Source: a virus
Length of the DNA: 64,000 bases
Direction: 5' to 3' (one strand)
Virus record (IMG/VR): IMGVR_UViG_3300007513_001761
Span: 49,249-113,248 of that record
Part shown: in pieces, positions 44,011 through 60,073 of the stretch
Layout of the letters: the number at the start of each line of letters is the position of its first letter
Position numbering within the stretch: position 1 is the stretch's first letter
Program-made: the position numbers and the translations under genes
The notes under the pieces: generated by a model
Told to the model about the DNA's origin: nothing
The model's input: the letters and a program-made list of their open reading frames with translations, nothing else
Database searches by the model: none

Positions 44011-44011
44011 T

Positions 44012-45496: not shown

Positions 45497-45702
45497 GCTT
45501 GGGCAACCTCGGAGATTTCGGCAGCAAAGAGCAACGCATTCACGCGCTGCATGTTTGTTTGCACTGCATCGTTGGGCGGTGTGGCCAAGTCGGCATAGAT
45601 GGCAAGCTGGAGCACCAGCACGTTGCACGCAGCAGCTTGCTGCTCCATGGGCGTGAGTGCCTTTGGGGCGTTGCTGGCGGAAAGGGTCAGGTCGCTGAAC
45701 AT
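45493..45702 (-). CDS. Small protein of unknown function
   Basis: 69 aa from MFSDLTLSASNAPK at 45702, preceded by GAGGATTTAC. Alanine-rich helices (MEQQAAACNVLVLQLAIYADL) dominate. First gene after promoter 45746-45799. Confidence 0.6.
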   Translation of the reverse strand: MFSDLTLSASNAPKALTPMEQQAAACNVLVLQLAIYADLATPPNDAVQTNMQRVNALLFAAEISEVAQA

Positions 45703-45745
45703 GTAAATCCTCGGGGGGTGCGGGCAAATCTCTAACTTATGATCT

Positions 45746-45799
45746 ATTATCTCATATGCGAGCGAGAAAAGCAAGCCGATCCTGTCAAGAGAATGTCAA
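45746..45799 (-). promoter_or_regulatory. Doublet promoter 1
   Basis: TTGACATTCTCTTGACA (45783-45799), 8 nt, TTGCTT (45769-45774), 17 nt, GATAAT (45746-45751), reading on the minus strand. The doublet includes the TGA stop of the gene at 45796. Confidence 0.82.
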
Positions 45800-46020
45800 G
45801 TCACAGCCTCCAACCACATCGGGTGAAAACACAGGATCTTCGCGCCAAACTGGACATGGTACAGATCCCTGTTTTTATGCCGTCTCTCTGATCTGACGAC
45901 TTCCACAACCAGACCGGTCCTGCTCTCTGGGAGCATCGGATCGTGGGTGCCGTCAATCACCCGAACCAGATCGCCAACGGCGAAAGGTTTATTCGTCTTC
46001 GTCGGTGTAGTAGCCATCAA
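45796..46020 (-). CDS. GDLV-type SH3-like protein
   Basis: 74 aa: NKPFAVGDLVRVIDGTHDP, RTGLVVEVVRSE and YHVQFGAKIL. Ends in AVT with its TGA inside the doublet of promoter 1. Confidence 0.7.
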   Translation of the reverse strand: MMATTPTKTNKPFAVGDLVRVIDGTHDPMLPESRTGLVVEVVRSERRHKNRDLYHVQFGAKILCFHPMWLEAVT

Positions 46021-46198
46021 GGTTTGTTTGGGAAGAGGACAAGGGCATTCGATAAACCATCTCGTCCTGAATGAAATAGGCGTGCTGCTCCATATCGGGC
46101 AAATAAGCTAGGATATGGTCAAGTAGTTCTTTGAGTTTCTCAATCTCTTCTTCGTTGCGCATGCGCCGGTAGTCGTCAAGGTTTATTAGCTCGCCCAT
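45989..46198 (-). CDS. Small acidic helical protein
   Basis: 69 aa from MGELINLDDYRRMRN at 46198, giving an ATGA overlap with the gene above. Helix-rich N-terminal half, acidic end (GYYTDEDE). Unknown. Confidence 0.6.
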   Translation of the reverse strand: MGELINLDDYRRMRNEEEIEKLKELLDHILAYLPDMEQHAYFIQDEMVYRMPLSSSQTNLDGYYTDEDE

Positions 46199-46503
46199 CA
46201 GAAAGGCACCTCTAAATAGGGGTCTTGCGTGAAGGGTGTCGCCTCGAAGATAATCGGCAACATGACGAGAGTAACCCCGGAACGCATGGCCAAGCCGACG
46301 TGACAACTTGTGGTCTGAGACTTGAAGGCGTTGCCGCCTGCCATGTACTCGGCCACAATGGTGCCGCCCATGCTTGTACGATGTCCGATCTTGAGATGGT
46401 AGGAATAAAGGTTTGTTCCGTCTGTGCTCATGGTGCAACGTCCATTGCGTGCGCGCTCTCCGCGCTTCCATGCTTCAATAACTCCTTGATTGGTGGTTCT
46501 CAT
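46198..46503 (-). CDS. Protein of unknown function
   Basis: 101 aa, beta-rich. The stretch TNLYSYHLKIGHRTSMGG and two conserved-looking cysteines do not identify it. Co-transcribed with the VWA/DUF2201 gene above. Confidence 0.55.
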   Translation of the reverse strand: MRTTNQGVIEAWKRGERARNGRCTMSTDGTNLYSYHLKIGHRTSMGGTIVAEYMAGGNAFKSQTTSCHVGLAMRSGVTLVMLPIIFEATPFTQDPYLEVPF

Positions 46504-46515
46504 GGTTGTAACTCC

Positions 46516-47799
46516 TTAATCGACCGCAATGACGCGCTCGTTGGTTTCAAAGTAGGGACGATCCGCATATGCCTTCGTCGTCATCCACATACGCTGGCAT
46601 GCGCTGGGAATGGGCTTAGGAGCACACATATCGGTGAGGATGATGTGACCGTCAAAGTTGTTTTCGTTGACGTACTTGGTGGGTGCATCAAAACACGTCC
46701 CACCGCAAAGCACTCGTTCCCATGCGCGGGTCTGTCCACGCTTCCAAGTATAAATCTTGTCCTCTGCAACGGCAGAATCAAAGGGGATCACCGTGAACTC
46801 TGCGATCTCGGCCAACTCGTTCAACTCGTTGAAAAACGCCGCCAGCATGCCGTCATCCACCGATCCGCTCTGATCAATGCTGATCGCGATCTTGGCGTGG
46901 CGACGGACGCGCTTGCCAGGATGGATCTTGGGGAAGCGACGGTTGATCCGTCGTGGCGTCGAGCGCCGATCAGCGCGTTGGGAAGTTTTAACGAAGTACC
47001 GCAGCACCTTGCGCCAGTCCACGCGGGTCTGGATGCGCTCAAGAATGTCTTTGCGCATGGATGCAGACACGGATCCCCAGCTACGAGCCTTTTCGGCTTC
47101 TTCTGCTGCCTTCTTGATCGCGTCCTTCAATCGCTCCGTGGCGATGTCTTTGGCAGTGCCTTCGGCATCACCGAACTGCTCGTGTGAATCAAAGCTATCG
47201 GCACCACCGAACGGATCGCCGTTGCCAGGCTGACCGGGCTGGCCACCTTCACCGGGCTGACCTTCGCCCGGCTGGCCTTCGCCGCCGCCGTCGCCTTCAC
47301 CTTCGCCCATCTTCTTGAGGGCTTCCAGATACCACTCGTAGGTCTGGTTGGCTGGCAGGTCGGCAAATGGACCTTCGCCCGGAATGCAACCCTTCATAGG
47401 CTCGCCGTTAATGTCCGGTCCTGGGTCGGTCTCACCTGGCAGCTTGCCGATCATTTCGGGCAAGCCGTTGATGGCCAAGTCCATCGCGATATTGTCGATG
47501 CGCTTCAAGCCGTCGATGGGCTTGCGACCGGTCACATGCTCAAAGATGATGTGATAGAACTCGTGCATGAGAACGCCCAGCTTGTGCTCGTCCTTCAAAG
47601 CGCCCATAAAAGAAGGGTTATAAAGAAGCTCAAACTGCTGCCGTTCTGGGTTCACGCGCACGCCCGCAGTCGGGATCGCAGTTGATGCGGTCTTGTCAAT
47701 CCGACGCGACAACGCAGCAAAAAACGGCTCTTGCATCAGCAAGCGCGCGGTGTGCATGTTCAAGTTGAAGGGGGTTTTAGTTGCGTTGTCGTCGTTCAT
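46516..47799 (-). CDS. DUF2201-like metallopeptidase/VWA protein
   Basis: 427 aa. N-terminal putative peptidase domain with LGVLMHEFYHIIFEH (HExxH) at about residue 80, a glycine/proline/glutamate linker (about 170-200), then a C-terminal VWA-like domain (KIAISIDQSGSVDDG, MIDAS DxSxS; HIILTDMCAP). This is the partner of MoxR AAA+ ATPases, where ATPase and VWA protein work as a chaperone pair for metal-cofactor insertion or complex remodelling. The MoxR gene lies at 48680. Promoter at 47820-47873. Confidence 0.88.
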   Translation of the reverse strand: MNDDNATKTPFNLNMHTARLLMQEPFFAALSRRIDKTASTAIPTAGVRVNPERQQFELLYNPSFMGALKDEHKLGVLMHEFYHIIFEHVTGRKPIDGLKRIDNIAMDLAINGLPEMIGKLPGETDPGPDINGEPMKGCIPGEGPFADLPANQTYEWYLEALKKMGEGEGDGGGEGQPGEGQPGEGGQPGQPGNGDPFGGADSFDSHEQFGDAEGTAKDIATERLKDAIKKAAEEAEKARSWGSVSASMRKDILERIQTRVDWRKVLRYFVKTSQRADRRSTPRRINRRFPKIHPGKRVRRHAKIAISIDQSGSVDDGMLAAFFNELNELAEIAEFTVIPFDSAVAEDKIYTWKRGQTRAWERVLCGGTCFDAPTKYVNENNFDGHIILTDMCAPKPIPSACQRMWMTTKAYADRPYFETNERVIAVD

Positions 47800-47819
47800 T
47801 TCCTTACCTCACTATACTA

Positions 47820-47873
47820 AGTATAGCAGTTGAACGGTTTGAAGTCAATAGTTTCGTGTCAAGAGAATGTCAA
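47820..47873 (-). promoter_or_regulatory. Doublet promoter 2
   Basis: TTGACATTCTCTTGACA (47857-47873), 8 nt, TTGACT (47843-47848), 17 nt, TATACT (47820-47825). Drives the VWA gene; the stop TGA of the 94-aa gene lies in the doublet. Confidence 0.85.
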
Positions 47874-48154
47874 GACTCATTTTTCTCGTCATCGTCTGCC
47901 ATGATCTCAGCGACCTCGGCCACCGTTAGCTGACGATCAGCCTTCCGGCGCTTGTTGTACTCGCGCAACAGGCGGTTGTACCGCTTGGAGTTGGGCTTAC
48001 AAACATGGATATGAGGCACTCCGATCCGGCTCATGCGCCGGAACATCTCGCGCGTTGCCTGCTCCGTGTCAGGGCGCGTTAGTGGCACCTCGGTTGCAAC
48101 AGGTTTGCCATCGACGATGGCCACAGACGTTTGACTCACATACCACTTGCTCAA
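47870..48154 (-). CDS. Small basic protein of unknown function
   Basis: 94 aa. YVSQTSVAIVDGKPVATEVPL opens with strands; the middle is basic (RYNRLLREYNKRRKA) and the end acidic (ADDDEKNES). No family. Confidence 0.6.
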   Translation of the reverse strand: MSKWYVSQTSVAIVDGKPVATEVPLTRPDTEQATREMFRRMSRIGVPHIHVCKPNSKRYNRLLREYNKRRKADRQLTVAEVAEIMADDDEKNES

Positions 48155-48183
48155 GATAAGCTCCTTTCTCTAGCTGATGATCT

Positions 48184-48237
48184 ATTATCTCATTTTTTGA
48201 CCTAAAAGTCAACCTCCACATGTCAGGAGAATGTCAA
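48184..48237 (-). promoter_or_regulatory. Doublet promoter 3
   Basis: TTGACATTCTCCTGACA (48221-48237), 8 nt, TTGACT (48207-48212), 17 nt, GATAAT (48184-48189); drives the 94-aa gene. Confidence 0.84.
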
Positions 48238-48241
48238 AGGT

Positions 48242-48454
48242 CTAAGGTTTGTTTGGGGTGTAATACTTGGCGCGCACTTCGATGTCCTTCATCCAAAAGT
48301 ATCGACCCTCTTGAAAGAGCCGGTAGATCCTGCGTGGTTGCTTGATGTTGCCGTACTCGTGTAGGTAGTCATCATTGACCTCGGTCACAATCGCCGGTTG
48401 ACCGGTCTTGTACTGGATGAGGAGCGCGCCAAGCTCAAAGGTTTGTTTGCTCAT
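48242..48454 (-). CDS. Small SH3-like protein
   Basis: 70 aa: FELGALLIQYKTGQPAIVTEV, RIYRLFQEGRYFWMKDIEV. G-A-LL replaces GDLV, but the strand order and length match. Codons 3-6 contain the recurrent AAACAAACCTT motif. Confidence 0.65.
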   Translation of the reverse strand: MSKQTFELGALLIQYKTGQPAIVTEVNDDYLHEYGNIKQPRRIYRLFQEGRYFWMKDIEVRAKYYTPNKP

Positions 48455-48678
48455 AGCTTCTCGCCTGGCACACGCATGAGGACATCGCCGTGGAAGATCA
48501 TGGACTTCCTACTTTTCAACCAGCGCACGGTGTAGCGGGCACGATAGGGTTTCTCAGTTATAACCTCGGTTATCATCCCTGGCCCGCTGGTTTCCGTGAA
48601 CGCCTGGTCAGGCGACCCTCTTGCAAGGCGGTTGGTCAGATAGACCAACTCGCCCAAAGAGAAGGTTGGATCAGACAT
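48451..48678 (-). CDS. GELV-type SH3-like protein
   Basis: 75 aa: FSLGELVYLTNRLARG, GPGMITEVITEK, YTVRWLKSRK. A close relative of the previous gene (4-nt overlap). Confidence 0.65.
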   Translation of the reverse strand: MSDPTFSLGELVYLTNRLARGSPDQAFTETSGPGMITEVITEKPYRARYTVRWLKSRKSMIFHGDVLMRVPGEKL

Positions 48679-48679
48679 T

Positions 48680-49759
48680 TTAGCCTCCCAAGATGCTGAC
48701 CAAGTGATCGCTGACGCGCTTGCCGCCAGTAGTTTCTGCCTTGTGCAGTGCGACCACGTTGTTCACGTTGTCGGCATCACCCAGGACGGTCCACATCTTC
48801 ATAGCCACCTCGGAGGGCAGCGTGACGAAGTAGTTGGCCAGGTTCTGCACCTGCGTCTCGGTCAGATCCGCTGCAAAGGTCTCCGCAGCTTCAAACTTTT
48901 GGATCATGGCAGCGTGATCGTTGATGCCCCACTCGGAGGTCTTAGCGATATCGCCACTATCAAGGATGTCCTCAATGGTCACCTGCCAAGCGTAGTTAAC
49001 AACGAAGTCCTTGAGTGCTACCGCTGCCTCGAAACCGAGAAACGCAGTGGCCAGGTTGAAAAGCAGGTCTTGATCGCCGCCCTCTTCAAACACGCCAGCA
49101 GGTGCGGCGGTGTTGTTGAACCGTGCCCAAGACCGGCGAGAAGGATAAACCTTGTTGGGCTCAAAGTCGCCCTTGTGCTCAAGGTGCAACCGGTTGTGGT
49201 TGATGAAGTCCCAGACAACGGTGTTCACCTTGCCGTCCTTCGCCCAGTTCAGCCAGTCCTCGTCAGAGGGATCCACATCGAAGACGGTCCAGCGGTCGAG
49301 TTCTGCCGGGTCCATCTCACCGACTTGGTACTGGGCACCATGCTCGCCACCGTTCACGGCTGCGATGATGATGGTCTCCGGGTGAAGGTTCCACCCGTTG
49401 ATCTTGCGGGAATCGGTCAACTCGAAGAGACCCTGACGGACCTCCATCGTTGCGCGGTCTACCTCATCGAGAAACAGCACCACCGGCTGCTCGCATGCGG
49501 TCACGAGCCAGTCGGGCGCGTTCCACGTCGTGGCCTTGCGACCGTTGATCGAAGTGTCTGCCGTGTCGGGCAGACCGAGAAGATCGCCCTCGGTCATCTG
49601 GGACGCCCGGCGCTCCACCACAGGCAGAGTCATCTGATCAGCGATCATGTAGACCACCTCGGACTTGCCGACGCCATGGCGACCGCGAATAAGCACGGGC
49701 AGCTTGGCGCTGATGATGTGAGGGGCGACGGAAAGGAAGGTTGCGAAATCGACGGACAT
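48680..49759 (-). CDS. MoxR-family AAA+ ATPase
   Basis: 359 aa. Walker A GRHGVGKSE at about residue 26, Walker B VVLFLDEVDR at about 90, then ELTDSRKINGWNLHPE and IIAAVNGGE, as in MoxR/RavA ATPases. It acts with the VWA protein at 46516. The two genes are in the same orientation but separated by four small genes and carry separate promoters. Confidence 0.9.
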   Translation of the reverse strand: MSVDFATFLSVAPHIISAKLPVLIRGRHGVGKSEVVYMIADQMTLPVVERRASQMTEGDLLGLPDTADTSINGRKATTWNAPDWLVTACEQPVVLFLDEVDRATMEVRQGLFELTDSRKINGWNLHPETIIIAAVNGGEHGAQYQVGEMDPAELDRWTVFDVDPSDEDWLNWAKDGKVNTVVWDFINHNRLHLEHKGDFEPNKVYPSRRSWARFNNTAAPAGVFEEGGDQDLLFNLATAFLGFEAAVALKDFVVNYAWQVTIEDILDSGDIAKTSEWGINDHAAMIQKFEAAETFAADLTETQVQNLANYFVTLPSEVAMKMWTVLGDADNVNNVVALHKAETTGGKRVSDHLVSILGG

Positions 49760-49800
49760 TTAGGCTCCAGAGATTAGTTGTTTCTCACTCTTACTTTATA

Positions 49801-49854
49801 AGTATACAGGAAAAAAGGTTTCAGGTCAAGGTTTATTTGTCAAGAGAATGTCAA
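49801..49854 (-). promoter_or_regulatory. Doublet promoter 4
   Basis: TTGACATTCTCTTGACA (49838-49854), 8 nt, TTGACC (49824-49829), 17 nt, TATACT (49801-49806). Drives MoxR; the stop of the gene at 49840 lies in the doublet. Confidence 0.85.
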
Positions 49855-50106
49855 AGGAAAGCCGCCGTCTGCCCATTGCAAACCCGACTCTGTGATGGTC
49901 CACTCATCGAGCCAACGCCCATCCATGGATCGCTCACGCTCGATCAAACCTTCGAGCACAAGCATGTCCAGGGCAAGACGTGGCCACGAGGTTTCGGGCG
50001 CTTGCAGGCTATACATGCCATCGCGACTGGTCACGACACGACGCAGCATGTAGATATCCCGCCTCGAAAGCAGCTTATCGTTGAACATATAAAGTCTCTC
50101 TCTCAT
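49840..50106 (-). CDS. Winged-helix-like small protein
   Basis: 88 aa (82 from internal MFNDKLLS). SRRDIYMLRRVVTSRDGMYS, ALDMLVLEGLIERER and DEWTITESGLQW follow the helix-helix-wing order of winged-helix proteins, with no clear family. Confidence 0.6.
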   Translation of the reverse strand: MRERLYMFNDKLLSRRDIYMLRRVVTSRDGMYSLQAPETSWPRLALDMLVLEGLIERERSMDGRWLDEWTITESGLQWADGGFPLTFS

Positions 50107-50936
50107 GCTTTCTTTGCCTTAAAGGCGGCAACGATGGTGTCTGATTCCCCGGAAAGCCAGTTAGCAGGGGGATTAATCTTGTCCGCGCTGACGGGGGAAA
50201 CCAGGGCACGGCGCTGGTAGTCGTTTTCTGAATCGTCCAGCTTCCAAGCTCCCAGGGTGCTGCCCATGCGAGGGGTAACATCGCCATGCACATCGACTCG
50301 AAGGATGTCCTGGTCCTCATTACGAAGATAGGGAAGCTCCATAGACTCACGGCGCTGGGTGTCCAGCTTATCCATCCGATGCAGAACGAGCACCGGGGCG
50401 CGCGAGTTGTAAATAGACATTTTATCCCACATTACATCGGTCACCATGCACACCACCTCGCGGCGATCCCAGCGCTTCTCGCCTGGGTTCTCGGGATCTG
50501 GGAAGTAGTCAGAATACCTTTGTGAAACGAGAGATCCCACCCCGATACCAGCGGCGCGCATGCCCTCAAGCACTACGCTGCGCATGGCGGCGGTCTTTTC
50601 GATGGCCCTCTGAATGTCTGCTTTTAGGGCAGAGCAGGTGCGGCGCGTGTGCCCCAAACCTTCTTCGGCCTCATCGCCATACTTGTACTTGCAGTAGGAG
50701 CAGCGGCGAGTGGGTCCGCGCTTTTCCAGCTTGTCGCCGGTCAGCGGGTTAACACCAGTCCGCACGGCGATCTTATCGGCCATCATTTTAGCCATGCGCT
50801 TGTCATAATCACAATCGCTAGCGTTGAAGCGATCAAAACGTTTTTGCAAACGCTTGAGTGCTTCAGGGCAAGACCTTCTGTTGTGTCCGCGCTGGTAGCA
50901 CGCGCCGCATCGAACTGTTCCGTAGTGATTACCCAT
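50103..50936 (-). CDS. Double zinc-knuckle protein
   Basis: 277 aa. CGACYQRGHNRRSC is a perfect CX2CX4HX4C knuckle near residue 9; CSYCKYKYGDEAEEGLGH..C gives a second, longer finger at about 80. The C-terminal half (GIGVGSLVSQRYSDYF, CMVTDVMWDKM, LVLHRMDKL) is an SH3-like unit. Zinc knuckles bind single-stranded nucleic acid. Confidence 0.8.
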   Translation of the reverse strand: MGNHYGTVRCGACYQRGHNRRSCPEALKRLQKRFDRFNASDCDYDKRMAKMMADKIAVRTGVNPLTGDKLEKRGPTRRCSYCKYKYGDEAEEGLGHTRRTCSALKADIQRAIEKTAAMRSVVLEGMRAAGIGVGSLVSQRYSDYFPDPENPGEKRWDRREVVCMVTDVMWDKMSIYNSRAPVLVLHRMDKLDTQRRESMELPYLRNEDQDILRVDVHGDVTPRMGSTLGAWKLDDSENDYQRRALVSPVSADKINPPANWLSGESDTIVAAFKAKKA

Positions 50937-50981
50937 GTTTTCTATCCTCTCGGGGGGGTGTCTTTCTCGACTTGATGATCT

Positions 50982-51035
50982 ATTATCTCATATGCGGCGC
51001 GCAAAGTCAACGCCCAAATGCAAAGTGAATGTCAA
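50982..51035 (-). promoter_or_regulatory. Doublet promoter 5
   Basis: TTGACATTCACTTTGCA (51019-51035), 8 nt, TTGACT (51005-51010), 17 nt, GATAAT (50982-50987). The second half-site is degenerate. Drives the zinc-knuckle gene. Confidence 0.8.
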
Positions 51036-51262
51036 GAGACGATTTCCAAGGCCGAAGCTGCCATACGAGCAGGTTTCTTCTCGCCCGCCCAGAGCACCAG
51101 CGGATCACCCTTGTCGGGGTTCACATCTCCAAAGTGATCGAAGGCGACGAGAACGCCGACCTTGCGAGCATGCACGGACAGACGAAGTCGGGCGCGCTCG
51201 GCAGCGCGATCCGCCTTGAAGCGGACCAGGCAGCCGGGGGAAATGTCGTCTTTCGTCATCAT
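51032..51262 (-). CDS. SH3-like protein
   Basis: 76 aa: DISPGCLVRFKADRAAE, KVGVLVAFDHFG, PLVLWAGEKKP. The start is only 6 nt after the -10 of promoter 6, so the message is probably leaderless. Confidence 0.65.
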   Translation of the reverse strand: MMTKDDISPGCLVRFKADRAAERARLRLSVHARKVGVLVAFDHFGDVNPDKGDPLVLWAGEKKPARMAASALEIVS

Positions 51263-51268
51263 GTATAC

Positions 51269-51322
51269 ATTATCCCATGAAACAGGGAAGAAGTCAAGGT
51301 TGGTTTGTCAGGAGAATGCAAA
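51269..51322 (-). promoter_or_regulatory. Doublet promoter 6
   Basis: TTTGCATTCTCCTGACA (51306-51322), 8 nt, TTGACT (51292-51297), 17 nt, GATAAT (51269-51274). It abuts the structured element at 51324. Confidence 0.8.
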
Positions 51323-51323
51323 A

Positions 51324-51506
51324 GGAGGCGATAGAGAGTGTGCGCTGTCCTTACCGCGCACGTCGCTTAGTCCCGCTTCAACTGCCACTTCGCGGCTAGC
51401 CTGCCTAAGAAGTCCGCGTTATGTGACTTCTAACCCTTGTTTTCAGCAGATGGGTTCGTTTGGGACGGTGAACCCGTTACTTTAGTTATGGCTCTCTATC
51501 GCCTCC
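51324..51506. ncRNA. Candidate structured RNA element, strand uncertain
   Basis: A 15-bp perfect stem (51324-51338 with 51492-51506) encloses about 153 nt with at least four internal hairpins: GTGCGC/GCGCAC, CTTAG/CTAAG around a GCC..GGC hairpin, AGAAGTC/GACTTCT and GGGTTC/GAACCC. GUCCC and GGGAC in two of the loops could pair. No gene fits. It lies between the stop at 51523 and promoter 6. GU pairs favour the plus strand in two stems and the minus strand in one. Alternatives: a DNA signal or a complex terminator. Confidence 0.55.
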
Positions 51507-51522
51507 GGCACTTACTCCTCCA

Positions 51523-52338
51523 TTATCGACTTTCTCCCTTCTTTTTCTTGGGTACTCGATGGGTTTTAAGATCGCGCTCTTCTGCGATGATCGTTTGGGT
51601 GCCTCCCACCGGCAGAAGTTTGTAAACCTTGTTGCCGCGCGCTGCGGCGACGGGAATCTCGGCGTTGGCTTGAATGACCACGGCCATTTCGGAAGGCATC
51701 TTGCGCCGGAGCGCCCAGGAAGCACTACCGCGCAGCGATACCATGCTTCCAACCTCGTATTTCGGGGCATCGAAGTAGCCCGCTAGTACCTTGGTTGCGT
51801 ACTTGTTGTTGGTCAAGCGGTCATAATCGCCCTTTGATGGTACACTTTCGGGGCTCAGACGCGCGCGCGACACGATCCGCTGAAAGTAGCCGTTCTTCCG
51901 GTAGTATTCCACCATCACATCAAACTTTTGACGCATCTCTGGGGTAAAGTCCTTCTCCCATGAGGCGCGCGTGGCCACTTGTCCGGCGGTCCAGTTGCTT
52001 TCAATGTTGGCCAAAACCTCTTGCTGACGAGGAGACAACGCGCTGCCTGCCATCAGTTGCTTCAGAAGGCTCTCGGTGAAGCCGAGCCCCCACTGTGCAT
52101 CGTCTCCACTCATGCGAGAACGCAACCCCTTGATGCGCGCGATCATTTCTTCATCGCGTGCAGGAGGGCTGTCATAGCGCGCTTCCAGTTGCAGCAGGCA
52201 ACGCTTCCGTCCGGCGGTCAGCGTGCGGCGGTGTTTGTAAGAACCATAGAGAGATTCCGCAAACGTCCGATCTCGCTCGCTCAAGTAATCTTTGGCGAGA
52301 AGGGCGGCGAAGCGGTCAGCGTAAGTGATGCGAGGCAT
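51523..52338 (-). CDS. Protein with C-terminal SH3-like domain
   Basis: 271 aa. The N-terminal 190 residues are helical and basic (SLYGSYKHRRTLTAGRKR). The C-terminal 80 (YEVGSMVSLRGSASWA, MAVVIQANAEIPVA, KVYKLLPVGGTQ) form a GSMV-type barrel related to the array proteins. It ends KKKKGESR. A fused helical domain makes it a possible clue to what the array barrels bind. Confidence 0.65.
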   Translation of the reverse strand: MPRITYADRFAALLAKDYLSERDRTFAESLYGSYKHRRTLTAGRKRCLLQLEARYDSPPARDEEMIARIKGLRSRMSGDDAQWGLGFTESLLKQLMAGSALSPRQQEVLANIESNWTAGQVATRASWEKDFTPEMRQKFDVMVEYYRKNGYFQRIVSRARLSPESVPSKGDYDRLTNNKYATKVLAGYFDAPKYEVGSMVSLRGSASWALRRKMPSEMAVVIQANAEIPVAAARGNKVYKLLPVGGTQTIIAEERDLKTHRVPKKKKGESR

Positions 52339-52363
52339 GGGTTAAACTCCTTTCTACTCTCTA

Positions 52364-52417
52364 AGTATCTCATAGAACGAGGTAGAAGTCAAGGTTTCTT
52401 TGTCAGGGAAATGTCAA
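52364..52417 (-). promoter_or_regulatory. Doublet promoter 7
   Basis: TTGACATTTCCCTGACA (52401-52417), 8 nt, TTGACT (52387-52392), 17 nt, GATACT (52364-52369). Drives the 271-aa gene. Confidence 0.83.
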
Positions 52418-52424
52418 CAAAGGT

Positions 52425-52820
52425 TTATTCGTCTTCTTCCACGATCACAGGGGTTGCTGTGCCCTGCATCATGCGCTGGAGGGCTGCACGTCGCTGTGCT
52501 GCCATCGAGCCCAGCCGCACATCAGAATCACCAAAAGCCTGTTGAGACCTGGCTTTCTTTATTTCGCGCGCTTGGAGTCCAATCTGAATAAACTGCTCTG
52601 CTGCTGCGGGCGGTGCTTCGTTGAACCTATCGTCCCACCCATCATCGCGGTGCAACATTTCGCGCAAGTCATCCTCCAATGCTGTAAGTTCGTTGATGCG
52701 ATCAGCAAGCTCCGGCGACGGCAAACAACCTGCTGACGTTTTGCCCACTTCAATGATGTGTGCGCCGACTGCCGTCATCAGCAGGGAAAGTTCGCGATCT
52801 GTTAGTTCGAGGGTTTTCAT
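52425..52820 (-). CDS. Small helical protein
   Basis: 131 aa. LELTDRELSLLMTAVGAHIIE and ELADRINELTALEDDLREM suggest helical bundles; no family. Acidic end EEDE. Confidence 0.55.
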   Translation of the reverse strand: MKTLELTDRELSLLMTAVGAHIIEVGKTSAGCLPSPELADRINELTALEDDLREMLHRDDGWDDRFNEAPPAAAEQFIQIGLQAREIKKARSQQAFGDSDVRLGSMAAQRRAALQRMMQGTATPVIVEEDE

Positions 52821-52845
52821 GTGTCATATCTCCAAGTGATGCTCT

Positions 52846-52899
52846 ATTATCTCATTAAACAGGGGGAAAGTCAAGGTTTGTTTGTGAGGGAAATGTCAA
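52846..52899 (-). promoter_or_regulatory. Doublet promoter 8
   Basis: TTGACATTTCCCTCACA (52883-52899), 8 nt, TTGACT (52869-52874), 17 nt, GATAAT (52846-52851). The upstream gene's TGA is in the doublet. Confidence 0.83.
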
Positions 52900-53180
52900 G
52901 TAATCTTCTGGAACATGTCGAACCGGTCATCAACAAAGTTTTTGACTTCGCGCAGCCCATCAAAACGTGGAGGTTCGCCGGACCCGCGTGCTGTTTCTGC
53001 CATTTTTGCGCATTCATGCCCGTAAGCACGGAGCAACTTGATCAACTCGATCTTGCTGAAAATCGCCTTTCTTCCGTAAGAAGAAAGACCTGCGTGTTTG
53101 CGCGCAAGAATGTTTGCGATCTGAAGTGCGTCTTTCAAACCTTCTCGATCTTCCGTGTCTAAAACTAGTGTAACTTTCAT
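52896..53180 (-). CDS. Small mixed-fold protein
   Basis: 94 aa. MKVTLVLDTEDREGLKDALQI opens with a strand and helix; SKIELIKLLRAYGHECAKMAE follows. No family. The ATG overlaps the stop of the GTG-started array gene (ATGA). Confidence 0.6.
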   Translation of the reverse strand: MKVTLVLDTEDREGLKDALQIANILARKHAGLSSYGRKAIFSKIELIKLLRAYGHECAKMAETARGSGEPPRFDGLREVKNFVDDRFDMFQKIT

Positions 53181-53338
53181 TTAACTGCCTCAATGCTTCG
53201 GTGGTGGAATGGCCAAACCTTTCCCTGAACGAGCACATCGTAAAAGGTGTTGTTGACCCCGTGGCGCGGTTCACTCACAATGATCCCGATGGGCTTACCA
53301 TCAATATACTTGCAACGTACTAAATCACCGACTTTCAC
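53177..53338 (-). CDS. GDLV array protein, GTG start
   Basis: 53 aa: MKVGDLVRCKYIDGKPIGII, VNNTFYDVLVQGKVW, HHRSIEAVK. The start codon is GTG within the 14-nt overlap GTGAAAGTCGGTGA. Confidence 0.7.
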   Translation of the reverse strand: MKVGDLVRCKYIDGKPIGIIVSEPRHGVNNTFYDVLVQGKVWPFHHRSIEAVK

Positions 53339-53528
53339 TGATCACCTCTGCTTCGTCGGCTCGCACTTCCACGGCTCCAAGTTTGTCCGCAACTTTCAGC
53401 ACTCGCACCAAGCCCTCCATGCGCTCGCCTATGATGATGCCTCGATACTGTGTGTATTCCCACGGCTCAAAAGCTGAGCCGGTACCGGTTGAGTACCATT
53501 TCCAACGGATAAGATCACCGATTTCCAT
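53325..53528 (-). CDS. GDLI array protein
   Basis: 67 aa: MEIGDLIRWKWYSTGTGSAF, YRGIIIGERMEG, VEVRADEAEVISESR. Cassette junctions at both ends. Confidence 0.75.
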   Translation of the reverse strand: MEIGDLIRWKWYSTGTGSAFEPWEYTQYRGIIIGERMEGLVRVLKVADKLGAVEVRADEAEVISESR

Positions 53529-53688
53529 TTAGAACCTCCACTTCACCCAAGTGACAAGAATAATACTCGCCGTTCCATAAAACCCTTGCACGAGCATAGA
53601 CATGGGGATCGTAATCATCAAACGACATGAAGATCCCGATAACCTTCTTACCCTCAACTGTGAACCTCACCAGATCACCCTTTTCCAT
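53515..53688 (-). CDS. GDLV array protein
   Basis: 57 aa: MEKGDLVRFTVEGKKVIGIF, YARARVLWNGEYYSC, VEVLNGNR. 14-nt overlaps on both sides. Confidence 0.75.
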   Translation of the reverse strand: MEKGDLVRFTVEGKKVIGIFMSFDDYDPHVYARARVLWNGEYYSCHLGEVEVLNGNR

Positions 53689-53881
53689 TAACCACCTCCC
53701 ATTCGCTCGCCATGCCGCGATACTTGGTGCTACCGACTAAAACCGTGATCACTTCATAAGGGGTACCAAGCACGCCTATGGTGATCACAACACCAGGCTT
53801 ATCAGTGTACGTGAAGCGCTTGTTGTTTTTAGCAGCCCAAAACATCATAGGTTTCATTTTCACCAAATCACCGACGTTCAT
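53675..53881 (-). CDS. GDLV array protein
   Basis: 68 aa: MNVGDLVKMKPMMFWA, KPGVVITIGVLG, ITVLVGSTKYRG, WEVVNGKG. Confidence 0.74.
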   Translation of the reverse strand: MNVGDLVKMKPMMFWAAKNNKRFTYTDKPGVVITIGVLGTPYEVITVLVGSTKYRGMASEWEVVNGKG

Positions 53882-54059
53882 TGATCACCTCAATATCTCG
53901 GCGGTAGTAAGCCGATGGCTGCTCGTGGGCATAGCCGTGAAAAGCAATAATCGGATCGTTGTCGCTGTCGAAACTGACCACAATGCCAGTTCCTAAGCGG
54001 GACGGCTTTTCCACATCTTCACGGGCATCAGCGAAAACTACCAGATCACCGACGTTCAT
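53868..54059 (-). CDS. GDLV array protein
   Basis: 63 aa: MNVGDLVVFADAREDVEK, LGTGIVVSFDSDN, IIAFHGYAHEQ, DIEVINERR. Confidence 0.75.
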   Translation of the reverse strand: MNVGDLVVFADAREDVEKPSRLGTGIVVSFDSDNDPIIAFHGYAHEQPSAYYRRDIEVINERR

Positions 54060-54204
54060 CTGCTTGCCCCTTGTGCTTGCCGTGCCGCACGTAACCGCGC
54101 TTGCTGTGAAATCCTGCGCCTTTGCGTCCAGTGAGACCTTTGGCGTGTGCGATCACCCAGTTGCGGGCTTTCGGCGTCTTGTTCTTGCTCTTTCTCTTAC
54201 TCAT
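54046..54204 (-). CDS. Small very basic protein, conserved in phages
   Basis: 52 aa: MSKRKSKNKTPKARNWVIAH, then GFHSKRGYVRHGKHKG. About a third is K/R, so it probably binds nucleic acid. Its end uses the 14-nt junction (DERR/MNVGD). It starts 6 nt after the -10 of promoter 9. Confidence 0.65.
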   Translation of the reverse strand: MSKRKSKNKTPKARNWVIAHAKGLTGRKGAGFHSKRGYVRHGKHKGQADERR

Positions 54205-54210
54205 ACATGT

Positions 54211-54264
54211 ATTATAGAGGATTTCGCCCTCAGAGTCAAGGGTTTAATGTCAGGAGAATGTCAG
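54211..54264 (-). promoter_or_regulatory. Doublet promoter 9
   Basis: CTGACATTCTCCTGACA (54248-54264), 8 nt, TTGACT (54234-54239), 17 nt, TATAAT (54211-54216). The first half-site TGA ends the upstream gene. Confidence 0.84.
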
Positions 54265-54446
54265 GTCTTTGCCATCCTCTCAAGCCGACTTTCCCGAAAA
54301 GGTTTAATCAGGTTCCGCTTCGTGAGGTATACATAGTAGCATAAATGCCCGACTATCGGCTCGGGATGTTTGCGCATCACGATACCCGTATGCAGAATGT
54401 GGCCAGTCCCCACAATACGCACCAGATCGCCTTTCTTAAAGCTCAT
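54261..54446 (-). CDS. GDLV-type protein
   Basis: 61 aa from MSFKKGDLVRIVGTGH at 54446; the frame above it is noise. HTGIVMRKHPEP and YYVYLTKRNLIK complete the barrel. Confidence 0.68.
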   Translation of the reverse strand: MSFKKGDLVRIVGTGHILHTGIVMRKHPEPIVGHLCYYVYLTKRNLIKPFRESRLERMAKT

Positions 54447-54454
54447 TTCAATCC

Positions 54455-54772
54455 TCAACCCTGCAACTGGGTTTGTACCACGGCAATCCGATACTCGGCG
54501 TGGCTTTGGTCCCAGAGCACATCGCACCATGAGCGAAAGATGGAATACAGATCGCCGCTCGATTTTGCCTTAAGCTCTTCGGTGGAACCGACAAAGCAAC
54601 GTTCGCCGTTGTCATCCACATATGTGGACAACGAGCCCTGTTGTGGCAGCGCGCCTATCAGATACTCATAGATGTCTTCAATAGCGCAGATTAAAGCCCC
54701 CTTACGGGTCATGTGAACGCTCGTAAAAGCCTCACCATCATAGGTGCCCACTGTGGAATATACTTTTATCAT
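54455..54772 (-). CDS. Small protein of unknown function
   Basis: 105 aa from MIKVYSTVGTYDGEAFTS at 54772. VHMTRKGALICAIEDIYEYL is followed by GSLSTYVDDNGERCFVGSTEE. A mixed fold, no family recognised. Overlaps the next gene by 4 nt. Confidence 0.6.
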   Translation of the reverse strand: MIKVYSTVGTYDGEAFTSVHMTRKGALICAIEDIYEYLIGALPQQGSLSTYVDDNGERCFVGSTEELKAKSSGDLYSIFRSWCDVLWDQSHAEYRIAVVQTQLQG

Positions 54773-55113
54773 GCGCTTCTCTTCTCTTTGCTCTCGGCCA
54801 ACATCTTCTCTACCCATGCACCACCAAACTCGGCTGCGTACTTGTCGCGGAGAACCAGCAACTTCTCGCCGTCCTTCACTTCGTTGCGCAGCTTGTAGCC
54901 AGGAATCAAAAACTCGGTCCCTGGAGGCATGCCGATAAACACAGAGCACACAGCATAGGGCACAGACTTCCACCGGGTTTTTTGCTCTCCGGTCTTCTTG
55001 TCCTTCCAACTGCTGCGGAAGCGCCGAAAGCGCATGTCAATCACGCGCGCTTGAAGCAAGCCGCCGTCTGGTTTTTGAATCATTACGATGTCGTCTTTGG
55101 TCAGATAAGCCAT
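54769..55113 (-). CDS. Protein with GD-like SH3 N-terminus
   Basis: 114 aa: LTKDDIVMIQKPDGGLLQARVI, then YAVCSVFIGMPPGT. A charged loop (RFRSSWKDKKTGEQK) interrupts the strands, and a helix (YAAEFGGAWVEKML) closes the protein. Confidence 0.6.
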   Translation of the reverse strand: MAYLTKDDIVMIQKPDGGLLQARVIDMRFRRFRSSWKDKKTGEQKTRWKSVPYAVCSVFIGMPPGTEFLIPGYKLRNEVKDGEKLLVLRDKYAAEFGGAWVEKMLAESKEKRSA

Positions 55114-55143
55114 TGAATGTGTCCTTTCTTGAGGTTATGCCTT

Positions 55144-55197
55144 ATTATGCCACAGGGAGATTGAGAAGTCAACCCTCAAATGTCAAGAGGATGTCAG
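55144..55197 (-). promoter_or_regulatory. Doublet promoter 10
   Basis: CTGACATCCTCTTGACA (55181-55197), 8 nt, TTGACT (55167-55172), 17 nt, CATAAT (55144-55149). Confidence 0.82.
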
Positions 55198-55386
55198 GAC
55201 TTCAAGGGTGTGCGTTGGAGTTTGAAAGGTGCCGTAAGATCCCCAGCAAACCTTGGCAATCCCCGCATTCATCTCTACAATGATTCCGATTCCCTTCCAG
55301 GTGCTGCGCTTGGCCAGTAGTCCATACTTCTTGCGGACCAGATCGCCAATGGCCAAAGGTTTATTCACAGTTTCAGAGTTTTTCAT
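55183..55386 (-). CDS. GDLV-type protein
   Basis: 67 aa: NKPLAIGDLVRKKYGLLAKR, GIGIIVEMNAGIA, KVCWGSYGTF. The stop lies in the doublet of promoter 10. Confidence 0.72.
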   Translation of the reverse strand: MKNSETVNKPLAIGDLVRKKYGLLAKRSTWKGIGIIVEMNAGIAKVCWGSYGTFQTPTHTLEVLTSS

Positions 55387-55564
55387 AGTAGTAGCTCGGA
55401 TCTTGAATGATTCCCTCAGAAAGAGAATGGATTTTGAGAATGGGATATTCGGACTCTCCCCACCCTAGTGCTTTTGATTCTGGAGTTTCAACGTGGATAA
55501 TATCCAAAATGACACAAACACCACCGGGCTTGCGATGTTGCCACACCAAATCACCCACTTTCAT
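55373..55564 (-). CDS. GDLV array protein
   Basis: 63 aa: MKVGDLVWQHRKPGGVCVIL, YPILKIHSLSEG. The C-terminus (YYYEKL) departs from the NESR pattern. Confidence 0.7.
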   Translation of the reverse strand: MKVGDLVWQHRKPGGVCVILDIIHVETPESKALGWGESEYPILKIHSLSEGIIQDPSYYYEKL

Positions 55565-55739
55565 TTAGCACCTCTAAGTTCGCACCCAGACACGAGAAAC
55601 TATGGCCATCAAGAGCGCGCAAGTCGTAAATAAACCGCGTTTCACCAGCGGAATCTTTGACTGAATGGCGAACACGCACAATCAAAGCCAAGATCATGCC
55701 AGGGTGGGTTTTGACCACCACCAGATCACCGACTTTCAT
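55551..55739 (-). CDS. GDLV array protein
   Basis: 62 aa: MKVGDLVVVKTHPGMILALI, FIYDLRALDGHSF, NLEVLNESG. Confidence 0.74.
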   Translation of the reverse strand: MKVGDLVVVKTHPGMILALIVRVRHSVKDSAGETRFIYDLRALDGHSFSCLGANLEVLNESG

Positions 55740-56114
55740 TTAGAAGTCCAGATTGATGGTGGTGTAGGGGTAGATATCCTGAAAGCCGTATCCGCGACTC
55801 TCAATGTCTGTACTATTTTCGCCCACTCGAACAAAGCGATAAAGCTCATCCAGTTGCATGCGTTGGCCATTAACTTCAATCTCAGTGCCCTCGTCGAGCT
55901 TTTCCATGAACGCCTCAATGGCTTCAATGACTGCATAGGAACTATACCATTTAATAGAGTTCCACCGAAACATGATCCCATCTTCGCGTTCTCTCTTTTC
56001 GTCGCAATCCTCATGGCACAAAGTGTGTGCGCCTGGACAACTTGTGAAAAGATGCATCAGCATTCCTTCGATTCGCTTGTCAACCACCAACACTACTTCT
56101 GAACGATAACCCAT
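55740..56114 (-). CDS. Conserved phage protein of unknown function
   Basis: 124 aa. MGYRSEVVLVVDKRIEGMLM and WNSIKWYSSYAVIEAIEAFM, with a two-cysteine loop (CPGAHTLCHEDC), a pattern seen in phage hypotheticals that sense or process small ligands (similar to ferredoxin-like folds). Not assigned. Confidence 0.62.
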   Translation of the reverse strand: MGYRSEVVLVVDKRIEGMLMHLFTSCPGAHTLCHEDCDEKREREDGIMFRWNSIKWYSSYAVIEAIEAFMEKLDEGTEIEVNGQRMQLDELYRFVRVGENSTDIESRGYGFQDIYPYTTINLDF

Positions 56115-56143
56115 GTGCTCTCCTTTTTTGAGCTTGTGATAAG

Positions 56144-56197
56144 AGTATAGCAGAAGACCAGAGCGCGGTCAAGGACCAAATGTCAGAGACATGTCAA
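56144..56197 (-). promoter_or_regulatory. Doublet promoter 11
   Basis: TTGACATGTCTCTGACA (56181-56197), 8 nt, TTGACC (56167-56172), 17 nt, TATACT (56144-56149). Confidence 0.83.
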
Positions 56198-56200
56198 AGG

Positions 56201-56407
56201 TCATGCGCTGCTGATTAAATCCAGTTCTCCCAAATGAAACCAGACTGAGGGCACCCACTTGTGCTCGGAGTTAATGTGGTTAGTGTGAAAGTAAACACGA
56301 TAGGAGGTATCTATCAGCGGATGTTTTGACCGTTCTATTTCCACAATAATGCCCACCATGTGGTGCGCCGTTCGTCGTTTGGGTTTAACCAAGTCACCGA
56401 CTTTCAC
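56201..56407 (-). CDS. GDLV array protein, recent duplicate A
   Basis: 68 aa: MKVGDLVKPKRRTAHHMVGI, SYRVYFHTNHINSEHKWV, LGELDLISSA. Nearly identical to the protein at 56685 (10 differences in 68). Confidence 0.78.
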   Translation of the reverse strand: MKVGDLVKPKRRTAHHMVGIIVEIERSKHPLIDTSYRVYFHTNHINSEHKWVPSVWFHLGELDLISSA

Positions 56408-56621
56408 TTAGTACCTCAAATCGTTCCAACGCAAAGTGTGAGAGGGTAGTAGCATGGCCACCGTGGACCGGCAACGGCTCAAACCATCGCACTGCTAAAC
56501 GAGGCTTACCATCGACCGGAGCAACCGGCGTAAAGTGTGTAATGTAACCCACATGCCCGATGAAGTGATGATAACTCTCACCTTCGGACAACCCAACGTA
56601 TTTAATAATCGATCCAATCAT
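56394..56621 (-). CDS. GSII-type SH3-like protein
   Basis: 75 aa from MIGSIIKYVGLSEG at 56621, 6 nt after the -10 of promoter 12, so probably leaderless. HVGYITHFTPV, LAVRWFEPL and FEVLSESR keep the family features though GDLV is replaced. Confidence 0.66.
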   Translation of the reverse strand: MIGSIIKYVGLSEGESYHHFIGHVGYITHFTPVAPVDGKPRLAVRWFEPLPVHGGHATTLSHFALERFEVLSESR

Positions 56622-56627
56622 GTTATG

Positions 56628-56681
56628 ATTATAGTCTCTGGCGATCAAAAAGTCAAGCGCCACATGTCAGAGAAATGTCAA
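56628..56681 (-). promoter_or_regulatory. Doublet promoter 12
   Basis: TTGACATTTCTCTGACA (56665-56681), 8 nt, TTGACT (56651-56656), 17 nt, TATAAT (56628-56633). Confidence 0.85.
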
Positions 56682-56684
56682 ACG

Positions 56685-56891
56685 TCAGGCGCTGCTGATC
56701 AAGTCCAGTTCTCCCAAATGAAACCACACGGACCTCACCCACTTGTGCTCGGAGTTGATGTGGTTCGTGTGGAAATAGACGAGATAGGATGTGTCTATCA
56801 TCGGATGTGGCGGTCGGCTGATCTCCACGATAATGCCCAGCATGTGGTGTGCTGTAAAACGTTTGGGTTTGACCAAATCACCGATTTTCAC
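56685..56891 (-). CDS. GDLV array protein, recent duplicate B
   Basis: 68 aa: MKIGDLVKPKRFTAHHMLGI, SYLVYFHTNHINSEHKWV, LGELDLISSA. A near copy of the 56201 gene, each followed by its own promoter. Confidence 0.78.
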   Translation of the reverse strand: MKIGDLVKPKRFTAHHMLGIIVEISRPPHPMIDTSYLVYFHTNHINSEHKWVRSVWFHLGELDLISSA

Positions 56892-57078
56892 TGATCACCT
56901 CTATGTTTTCGGGACACTCAGCCGAAAGACCCTCAACATCGGTCCACATAGGAGTATCCCAGTGTACCAGCACTTGTTTGTGATCCCACCCGGTATTTAT
57001 ACACATCACAATACCGAATCGTCTTGATCCAGACAGTAGGTTAGCTTTCGTTGGGCGTACTAGATCACCCACTTTCAT
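56878..57078 (-). CDS. GDLV array protein
   Basis: 66 aa from MKVGDLVRPTKANLLSG at 57078. RFGIVMCINTGWD, VLVHWDTPMW, NIEVISENR. Confidence 0.74.
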   Translation of the reverse strand: MKVGDLVRPTKANLLSGSRRFGIVMCINTGWDHKQVLVHWDTPMWTDVEGLSAECPENIEVISENR

Positions 57079-57286
57079 CGTACACCTCAAAAGGTTTATA
57101 TGTAAGTCGGTTAAACCATTTGGCTGGGTAGGCGGTAAGACCATGACCCCACAAAATGTGATATTCGCTCGGGTGTCCCTCGTGCATGACGATTTTTACC
57201 AACAAACCCAGCCAAGATTGGGTGTAGTCTAGCCCTGGCCTTGCTTGATGCGCCTTAGAAAACATCACCAGATCACCCACTTTCAT
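57065..57286 (-). CDS. GDLV array protein
   Basis: 73 aa: MKVGDLVMFSKAHQARPG, LGLLVKIVMHEGH, YHILWGHGLTAY, FEVYDESG. Confidence 0.74.
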   Translation of the reverse strand: MKVGDLVMFSKAHQARPGLDYTQSWLGLLVKIVMHEGHPSEYHILWGHGLTAYPAKWFNRLTYKPFEVYDESG

Positions 57287-57473
57287 TTACAACCTCCATT
57301 TGTTCAAGGGGTGTGGAGTAGATTTGGCCATCCCACAACACATAGGCGCGAGTAATGACCGGATAGCCTTCGGCGTCTCTGCCGATAGCAACGATGTCAT
57401 CCCGAATAAAAACCCCAAGAACGGGTTTCTCATGCGGACCAAACATTACTTTCACCAAATCACCGGGCTTCAC
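57273..57473 (-). CDS. GDLV array protein
   Basis: 66 aa: MKPGDLVKVMFGPHEKPVLG, RAYVLWDGQIYS, MEVVNESG. Confidence 0.74.
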   Translation of the reverse strand: MKPGDLVKVMFGPHEKPVLGVFIRDDIVAIGRDAEGYPVITRAYVLWDGQIYSTPLEQMEVVNESG

Positions 57474-57675
57474 TGATCACCTCTGCTTCGTCATTAGCCA
57501 GTTCCCACTCGCCACAATCAAACTGAACGATCCACATCTGACAGCCGTGTCGGTATTCTTCTTGCTTCTTCACCACTCCGAGGCGGCTGCTTTCATGGAA
57601 GCAAAAGAAACATTCACACTCTCCTTGGCTGTACCCAGGACAATCCGCAACCTTTACTAAGTCACCCACTTTCAT
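57460..57675 (-). CDS. GDLV array protein with cysteine insert
   Basis: 71 aa: MKVGDLVKVADCPGY, then an insert CECFFCFHESS with three cysteines (possible metal site), LGVVKKQEEY, WIVQFDCGEW, AEVISEAR. Confidence 0.74.
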   Translation of the reverse strand: MKVGDLVKVADCPGYSQGECECFFCFHESSRLGVVKKQEEYRHGCQMWIVQFDCGEWELANDEAEVISEAR

Positions 57676-57898
57676 TTACAACCTCCAACATCGCGCGCAT
57701 GTGCCAGCTTTTGCCATGGCGTGGCCAGATCACGATGGCATCATTCCACACATCACAATCGAGATCGCGGTCCAGCGAATAGCCTCTTTGTTCAAAAGCA
57801 ATCACAATGCCATATCCCATCTCATCAATGGTTTTGCGGAGAGCGTCACGGTCTAGTAGCTCGTCATTCTTTAGTCTAACGATGTCACCCACTTTCAT
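57662..57898 (-). CDS. GDIV array protein
   Basis: 78 aa: MKVGDIVRLKNDELLDRD, with a helical insert (ALRKTIDEMG), YGIVIAFEQRGY, AIVIWPRHGK, LEVVNESG. Confidence 0.74.
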   Translation of the reverse strand: MKVGDIVRLKNDELLDRDALRKTIDEMGYGIVIAFEQRGYSLDRDLDCDVWNDAIVIWPRHGKSWHMRAMLEVVNESG

Positions 57899-58061
57899 TG
57901 ATCACCTCATAGTTCCAGCCTTGTAGCCAGCCCGCCTCTCCGATAACCTTTATCCACCCCCCATCTGTGGCACGCACCAAGTAGGCTTTATCATAGCGAG
58001 TTGTGATAGACTTGGCTCTCACTAAGTCACCCACTTTAATCCGGGGCTTCACCTGCCTCAT
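57885..58061 (-). CDS. GDLV array protein, first of its operon
   Basis: 58 aa: MRQVKPRIKVGDLVRAKS, DKAYLVRATDGGWIKVI, YEVINESG. The leader MRQVKPRI replaces the usual short start because no gene precedes it in the transcript. Confidence 0.72.
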   Translation of the reverse strand: MRQVKPRIKVGDLVRAKSITTRYDKAYLVRATDGGWIKVIGEAGWLQGWNYEVINESG

Positions 58062-58088
58062 CAATGCCTCTTTCTTTAGGTTGTGTCA

Positions 58089-58142
58089 ACTATACCACAG
58101 CCCCCTTAAACGGTCAAGCCTGTTTTGTCAGAGGCTTGTCAA
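58089..58142 (-). promoter_or_regulatory. Doublet promoter 13
   Basis: TTGACAAGCCTCTGACA (58126-58142), 8 nt, TTGACC (58112-58117), 17 nt, TATAGT (58089-58094). Confidence 0.82.
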
Positions 58143-58308
58143 GTTCAACGCGGCGAAGCTGCTCGCGAATAGTTTTTACGTTCTGATCTGTGAGGGTGGT
58201 CTGCACAGGCTCACAAAGATACCCGCGCAGCCACCACACAAACTGTGCGGCCGAAAGGTTTGTTTGGTCAAGACTCAAACTTGATGACTCCCGGCGGTAG
58301 TTCGCCAT
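58114..58308 (-). CDS. Conserved phage protein (FVWWLRGYL type)
   Basis: 64 aa from MANYRRESSSLSLD at 58308. The LSAAQFVWWLRGYLCEP pattern recurs in small phage proteins, and the rest is helical (VKTIREQLRRVELD). Overlaps the 99-aa gene by 41 nt. Function unknown. Confidence 0.6.
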   Translation of the reverse strand: MANYRRESSSLSLDQTNLSAAQFVWWLRGYLCEPVQTTLTDQNVKTIREQLRRVELDKPLTKQA

Positions 58309-58567
58309 CCACCATCCCACCATGCTTGGCGATGACGGTGGCCACAGTGAACACGGGAACGTATGCGTACACGGTTTCGGTGGGCTTGGCATGATCCTCC
58401 ACGTATTCCATCAGCATCTCTTCTTTTTCGGAAGGAAAGCCCACTTCCACCTCGGTGTAACGTGTGGCGTGGTCCATTCGCGGGCTACAGTATGCTCCAT
58501 CGTGCGCTTGGACGCTCATTGTAAAGCCGTCCGCACACACTACCATTTTATTGCGTTTAAGGTTCAT
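58268..58567 (-). CDS. Conserved phage protein
   Basis: 99 aa from MNLKRNKMVVCADG at 58567 after AGGAGG. ADGFTMSVQAHDGAYCSPR, YTEVEVGFPSEKEE and VYAYVPVFTVATVIAKHGG occur as a block in many phage hypothetical proteins. Function unknown. Confidence 0.66.
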   Translation of the reverse strand: MNLKRNKMVVCADGFTMSVQAHDGAYCSPRMDHATRYTEVEVGFPSEKEEMLMEYVEDHAKPTETVYAYVPVFTVATVIAKHGGMVDGELPPGVIKFES

Positions 58568-58571
58568 TGTT

Positions 58572-59261: not shown

Positions 59262-59285
59262 TTGTGCCTCCTAAAAAGGAAAAAT

Positions 59286-59534: not shown

Positions 59535-59549
59535 CTTTCCTCTGCGGTC

Positions 59550-60041: not shown

Positions 60042-60073
60042 ATCTTTCTCCTATTTCGTTTAAGAATCTGTGG

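Follow-up and report, generated by a model that had tools for sequence, protein, structure and literature searches.

A promoter class with a rigid upstream TGACA doublet in one gene block of uncultured T4-like phages

The window analysed here is a stretch of 64,000 nucleotides, bases 49249-113248 of the 113,248-base virus record IMGVR_UViG_3300007513_001761, and it carries on its minus strand a block of small genes whose promoters share an uncommon upstream element. The block encodes a MoxR-like ATPase, a DUF2201-VWA protein, Cys-knuckle proteins, arrays of small KVGDLV proteins that appear SH3-like by eye, and a 94-aa protein of its own family. An earlier note on this DNA had described thirteen minus-strand copies of one promoter in which two -35-like hexamers (here called the doublet) stand at a fixed distance upstream of the -35 and -10 boxes. 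The thirteen sites and the conserved genes that matter for the argument are given below.

58089..58142, minus strand: doublet promoter 1, TTGACA-N5-CTGACA-N8-TTGACC-N17-TATAGT (strict and tolerant searches)
56628..56681, minus strand: doublet promoter 2 (strict and tolerant searches)
56144..56197, minus strand: doublet promoter 3 (strict and tolerant searches)
55144..55197, minus strand: doublet promoter 4 (strict and tolerant searches)
54211..54264, minus strand: doublet promoter 5 (strict and tolerant searches)
52846..52899, minus strand: doublet promoter 6, second half-site CTCACA (tolerant search)
52364..52417, minus strand: doublet promoter 7, upstream of a conserved 271-aa gene at 51523-52338 (strict and tolerant searches)
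51269..51322, minus strand: doublet promoter 8, first half-site TTTGCA (tolerant search)
50982..51035, minus strand: doublet promoter 9, second half-site TTTGCA, upstream of a Cys-knuckle protein gene at 50103-50936
49801..49854, minus strand: doublet promoter 10, upstream of the MoxR-like ATPase gene (strict search)
48184..48237, minus strand: doublet promoter 11, upstream of the candidate regulator gene (strict search)
47820..47873, minus strand: doublet promoter 12, upstream of the DUF2201 metallopeptidase/VWA gene (strict search)
45746..45799, minus strand: doublet promoter 13, poor -35 TTGCTT (tolerant search)
48680..49759, minus strand: MoxR/AAA_5 ATPase, conserved block gene and anchor for finding relatives
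47870..48154, minus strand: 94-aa protein, its own gene behind doublet promoter 11, candidate reader or modulator of the doublet
46516..47799, minus strand: DUF2201 metallopeptidase and VWA-like protein, conserved block gene

The strict pattern YTGACA-N5-YTGACA-N8-TTGACY-N17-NATANT matches nine times without mismatch, always on the minus strand between 47820 and 58142, where no match is expected; 100 dinucleotide shuffles gave none. A tolerant search allowing up to 6 mismatches returned 13 minus-strand copies, each within 2 mismatches of a version with a slightly stricter -10, and one unrelated plus-strand match with 6 mismatches. All thirteen keep the 5-, 8- and 17-nt spacings, as the earlier note had stated, and twelve have a TTGACY -35 at 17 nt from the -10, which is the core of a sigma70-type promoter. 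The departures are few: a half-site is damaged in three copies (at 52899, 51322 and 51035), and the copy at 45799 has the poor -35. The 17-mer TTGACATTCTCTTGACA is exact in only three copies, and GAGATAATAGATCAT is common to three or four. As the 17-nt spacers between the boxes and the flanks differ from copy to copy, it is the boxes and not whole cassettes that are conserved, and a recent duplication of whole cassettes was rejected.

The element is also specific to these promoters. In a count over the whole 113,248-base record, which the earlier note had proposed, a weight matrix built from the 13 copies scored them at 46-63 bits and everything else at 9 bits or less; the matrix was trained on the same copies that it scores, and shuffled maxima were about 8 bits. 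Rather than being equally abundant outside promoters, exact doublets in the record are in 10 of 10 cases followed by a -35 at N8, and the opposite strand has none. An independent scan for sigma70-like sites between 47 and 58.2 kb found the doublet at all 12 well-formed intergenic promoters, the thirteenth copy with its TTGCTT lying outside this set; an extra match at 46655, inside the DUF2201 gene, does not resemble a promoter. The tRNA promoters (60812 and 60189), which had been said to lack the doublet, do lack it, as do the other sigma70-like sites outside the block.

The same class is found in many other viruses. When the 31-bp part of the pattern was scanned over 2.9 million virus contigs, 40 stretches were found, most of which then have a -10 at 17 nt. 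Searches of whole records at 3 mismatches or fewer place the copies in clusters on a single strand; over 32 records, the reversed control matched once. A sample not selected for the doublet, comprising 80 virus loci retrieved through the neighbouring MoxR gene alone, contains at least two doublet promoters in 55 loci. In these MoxR-anchored loci the doublet accompanies 383 of 860 sigma70-like sites on the gene strand against 2 of 182 on the opposite strand, and TGACA-N6-TGACA occurs 364 times, against 15 with N5, 14 with N7 and 9 for the reversed form. Counts of hexamer spacing in relatives peak sharply (N5 55, other spacings 0-1; N17 52), and the gap between doublet and -35 is 8 (55) or 9 (30) nt. 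The 'exactly 8 nt' of the earlier note thus holds for this phage but not for the class, so that its fixed 54-bp geometry is better described as two rigid modules, the doublet (N5) and the core (N17), joined by 8 or 9 nt with 1-bp play.

Near-complete genomes, about 200 kb long, have all their doublets in one block of small genes that spans about 15 kb. Judged by gene content (T4-type baseplate genes, a DnaE-type polymerase, and GroEL/GroES-like and IMP-dehydrogenase-like genes, partly recognized by eye), the carriers are a large group of uncultured T4-like phages; sample numbers and relatives indicate that they are probably marine. A DNA match to the closest cultured phages was sought and none was found, the best baseplate match being to Microcystis phage Mel-JY01 at 31%. 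A search of 84,980 bacterial and archaeal species returned no match to the full promoter pattern.

What stands upstream of the core changes among relatives, where the doublet is replaced by A-tracts, by a version with a pitch of 10, or by a palindrome near -62. A-tracts adjoin the -35 in the same block of a more distant branch of the phage group, and pitch-10 repeats occur in L174, L217 and L233. The pitch-10 form reads GTGACA-N4-GTGACA in these three and in L213 and L219; it abuts the -35 in L213 and L219, and partly in L217. The promoters of L166, whose MoxR is 82% identical to that of the window, have no doublet and carry the palindrome GGACAGAACTTGTCC centred near -62.

L166:2607-10338, plus strand: block with palindrome promoters

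In some lineages the -35 that accompanies the doublet is weak, either TAGACA (43) or TGGACA; L167, L183 and L205-L212 form this subgroup. Such a pairing of the doublet with a weak -35 (TAGACA) looks like compensation and speaks for activation. At L175:6840, L176:5241, L177:10683, L191:11557 and L214:5303 the doublet is reversed (TGTCA-N6-TGTCA), and behind it come a conserved C-rich tract (CCCCCTACCC) and a segment similar to GTATGTCTC. This arrangement falls outside the promoter class and is possibly another site of the same regulator.

We propose that the 13 sites are early promoters of an uncultured T4-like phage, built of two modules. Host RNA polymerase would use the downstream one, a plain sigma70 core of the TTGACY-N17-TATAAT type that comes close to consensus. 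In the upstream module, the pair of TGACA half-sites, spaced 11 bp and lying at about -60 and -49, would serve as operator for a single dedicated DNA-binding protein; bound head-to-tail along the same side of the helix, at 8 or 9 bp from the -35, this protein would aid polymerase binding. Its source would most likely be the phage lineage and not a host regulon, and the best candidate, the 94-aa protein, would reinforce its own class by being made from a doublet promoter. We give this reading, early promoters activated via the doublet by a dedicated protein of the phage lineage, a probability of roughly 45%, whereas activation as such, whether the factor is of phage or of host origin, appears likely. 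The earlier note had called for one regulator or a modified polymerase. The idea of one promoter class with a rigid upstream element has stood, whereas a modified polymerase is unlikely, because the block has strong sigma70 cores and the doublet is found in only one region of about 15 kb. The doublet has the appearance of a docking site for a single dedicated regulator.

As to timing, we infer from the gene content of the block, from a second motif class outside it, and from the sigma-region-4 and gp33-like genes beside the head genes that the doublet class is most likely early. The second motif, ACTATTTA, has no -35; it stands directly upstream of genes, mostly outside the block, with a strong bias to the coding strand (e.g., 24 vs 2), and is probably the late promoter of the phage group. 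The T4 late motif TATAAATA showed no enrichment on the coding strand. A free-standing sigma-region-4 protein and a neighbour that we take as gp33-like are encoded adjoining the head genes.

Window 13559-41667, minus strand: ACTATTTA motif, also present in records G033, G034, G022, G031, G035, G039 and G043
L052:12681-12941, minus strand: sigma-region-4 gene, adjoining a putative gp33-like gene; relatives occur, e.g., at G033:141593-141853

The 94-aa protein was singled out by its distribution. In a screen of 164 families over the compared genomes, its family ranks top among the block genes, being present in 13 of 14 doublet genomes and in none of 6 others. At the level of loci it is present in 47 and absent from 8 of those with the doublet, and present in 1 and absent from 23 of the rest, and in L221 and L233 doublet and candidate occur together within an otherwise negative branch. 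The structure, which is predicted confidently (pLDDT 87.5), has a beta-beta-alpha-beta-alpha arrangement with a C-terminal helix; searches of Pfam and PHROG gave no match.

Several observations weigh against this candidate or against activation itself. A lipoprotein encoded outside the block tracks the doublet about equally (7 of 7 complete genomes vs 0 of 6), so clade membership alone can yield such a pattern. On the MoxR tree, about three of four independent contrasts agree and none is opposed, too few for significance, and the comparisons of operator types in general draw on a handful of long genomes per type with few independent switches. L224 (185 kb) and the L205-L212 group have the doublet but lack the candidate, and L223 has the candidate but lacks the doublet. 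A fold search with the 94-aa protein found no match to a known fold or DNA-binding protein. Moreover, the cores look strong enough to fire unaided, and if an activator is required at time zero, it must be supplied by the host or delivered with the virion. The 94-aa protein is therefore a candidate only, the best one and unproven. The bolder proposal, that a phage-encoded regulator of new fold from this family reads the TGACA tandem operator at all promoters of the block, and that lineages have repeatedly swapped operator and protein (pitch-10, palindrome at -62, A-tract) to give natural orthogonal pairs of early promoter and regulator, seems doubtful to us.

Among the other explanations, the one that we take most seriously, unlikely as we judge it, is that a host response regulator of the OmpR/PhoB winged-helix type binds the doublet and that the phage has borrowed its box. 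The doublet resembles OmpR/PhoB-family boxes in being a direct hexamer repeat with 5 nt between (N5 only, other spacings being absent), in its 11-bp pitch, which bears out the PhoB-like geometry noticed earlier, and in its position upstream of the -10. The core of the E. coli Pho box is TGTCA-N6-TGTCA, which is the sequence of the doublet on the other strand, and in E. coli-type Pho promoters the box stands in place of the -35. Here, in contrast, a complete near-consensus TTGACY -35 is retained 8-9 nt downstream. The reversed direction relative to PhoB boxes, pointed out in the earlier note, is no obstacle, because PhoP boxes of the same family, defined as a hexamer-N5-hexamer direct repeat, function either way round (PMC3335776). 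A host factor would already be present at time zero, and some promoters of T4-like cyanophages are bound by host PhoB (PMC10976474). The doublet class shares with those promoters, in S-PM2d and P-SSM2, the T4-like marine phage and the upstream direct-repeat site; there, only some genes are concerned, with weak boxes and a known host factor, whereas the doublet class occupies a whole promoter block with a rigid element. The OmpR/PhoB-type domain (PF00486) was not found encoded in 18 virus records, which fits a host protein and led us to reject a phage protein of this type. Against a host Pho regulon stand the absence of the full architecture from all of the 84,980 cellular species, downstream genes that are not phosphate genes, and the use of other elements by close relatives among the phages. 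In 91 genomes of a Myxococcota class suggested by one phage-bearing metagenome-assembled genome (MAG), the stricter doublet occurred 5 times vs 1 for the reversed control, with no enrichment indicating a regulon; as the host is only putative, this test is weak. The WOR-3 'chromosome' CP070664, with 10 doublets vs 0 in the control, was also rejected as a host regulon: phage early genes follow several of its sites, which marks it as a MAG with pieces of phage in it and not as host evidence. In CP070664.1 (WOR-3 bin77, G046), pieces of the phage group with doublet promoters lie around 8 kb, 594-600 kb, 1263 kb, 2078 kb and 2143 kb; deposited as one chromosome, it is probably a chimeric assembly.

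The remaining explanations concern phage proteins and the polymerase itself. The doublet might be a shut-off operator, bound later by a phage protein made from these promoters that ends the early class, e.g., by holding the polymerase at a promoter that is strong anyway. Near-consensus cores that require little help, the candidate encoded behind a doublet promoter (48184-48237) as expected of an autoregulator, and the fast evolution of operators, which matches the turnover described above, would all suit this idea; we nevertheless consider it improbable, as the doublet lies upstream of the -35 and not over the core, and lineages whose -35 is weak (TAGACA) retain it, which is easier to reconcile with help than with blockage. 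Operators and stoperators of mycobacteriophage L5 are likewise asymmetric, present in many copies, oriented with transcription and diversifying between relatives, but their layout differs (PMC9283540): they are single 13-mers scattered also between genes, whereas the doublets are confined to the promoters of one block. Even less probable is an unusual UP element read directly by the C-terminal domain of the host or phage-modified alpha subunit. The doublet does fall near the usual -57/-46 subsites, A-tracts adjoin the -35 in the same block of more distant relatives, and in T4-type early promoters ADP-ribosylated alpha reads an A-rich UP element (PMC1524935). Like T4-type early promoters, the doublet promoters are many, strong and of sigma70 type, and they lie in blocks where the genes of a T4-like phage are small and poorly conserved; the more distant members of the group with A-tracts still resemble them. 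Unlike them, the doublet class has a sequence-specific tandem element in place of the A-rich -40/-44 element, and its spacer is not A-rich; the precise hexamers with invariant G/C positions are unlike A-tract UP elements, and close relatives would require differing alpha specificities. T4 middle (MotA) promoters have a TGCTTtA box 11-13 nt from the -10 and no -35 (PMC1524935), whereas the doublet promoters have a canonical -35 at 17 nt. Least probable, and very much so, is a reading of the doublet by the free-standing sigma-region-4 protein, which is Cys-rich and about 80-105 aa long; the possibility arises because each half-site is a perfect -35 hexamer. The protein matches Sigma70_r4 (E 1.7e-10) and is present in nearly all doublet records long enough to hold the gene, but it was rejected as the reader because it occurs also in relatives without any doublet. 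Moreover, its recognition helix is nearly invariant (SFARVKQIE) though the element changes, and its gene lies outside the block beside the gp33-like gene, so it is more likely a late factor. The gp33-like/ribbon-helix neighbour, present with all promoter types, was rejected as well. The sigma-region-4 family with an N-terminal Cys cluster was found at 297 virus loci in one scan, with no match in cultured phages. We thus place the doublet class with phage early promoters that have a regulator site upstream, rather than treat the doublet as a Pho box.

Two further features of the window were observed. Small ORFs starting (M)KVGDLV form an array of about two dozen motifs at 42249-62006 on the minus strand, SH3/KOW-like by eye, and many lie immediately behind doublet promoters. 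A phage-encoded tmRNA lies at 22237-22601 on the minus strand and has an unusual tag, ANNNTHFEAVAVAA.

The promoter class is common to dozens of uncultured phages, and its short, searchable signature may be used to map their early regions. The question of how these phages claim the host polymerase becomes directly testable, with one candidate gene at hand. If the upstream module and a phage protein do change together, the group would supply orthogonal activator-operator pairs ready for use and would show, as is seldom possible, how promoter specificity turns over in lytic phages.

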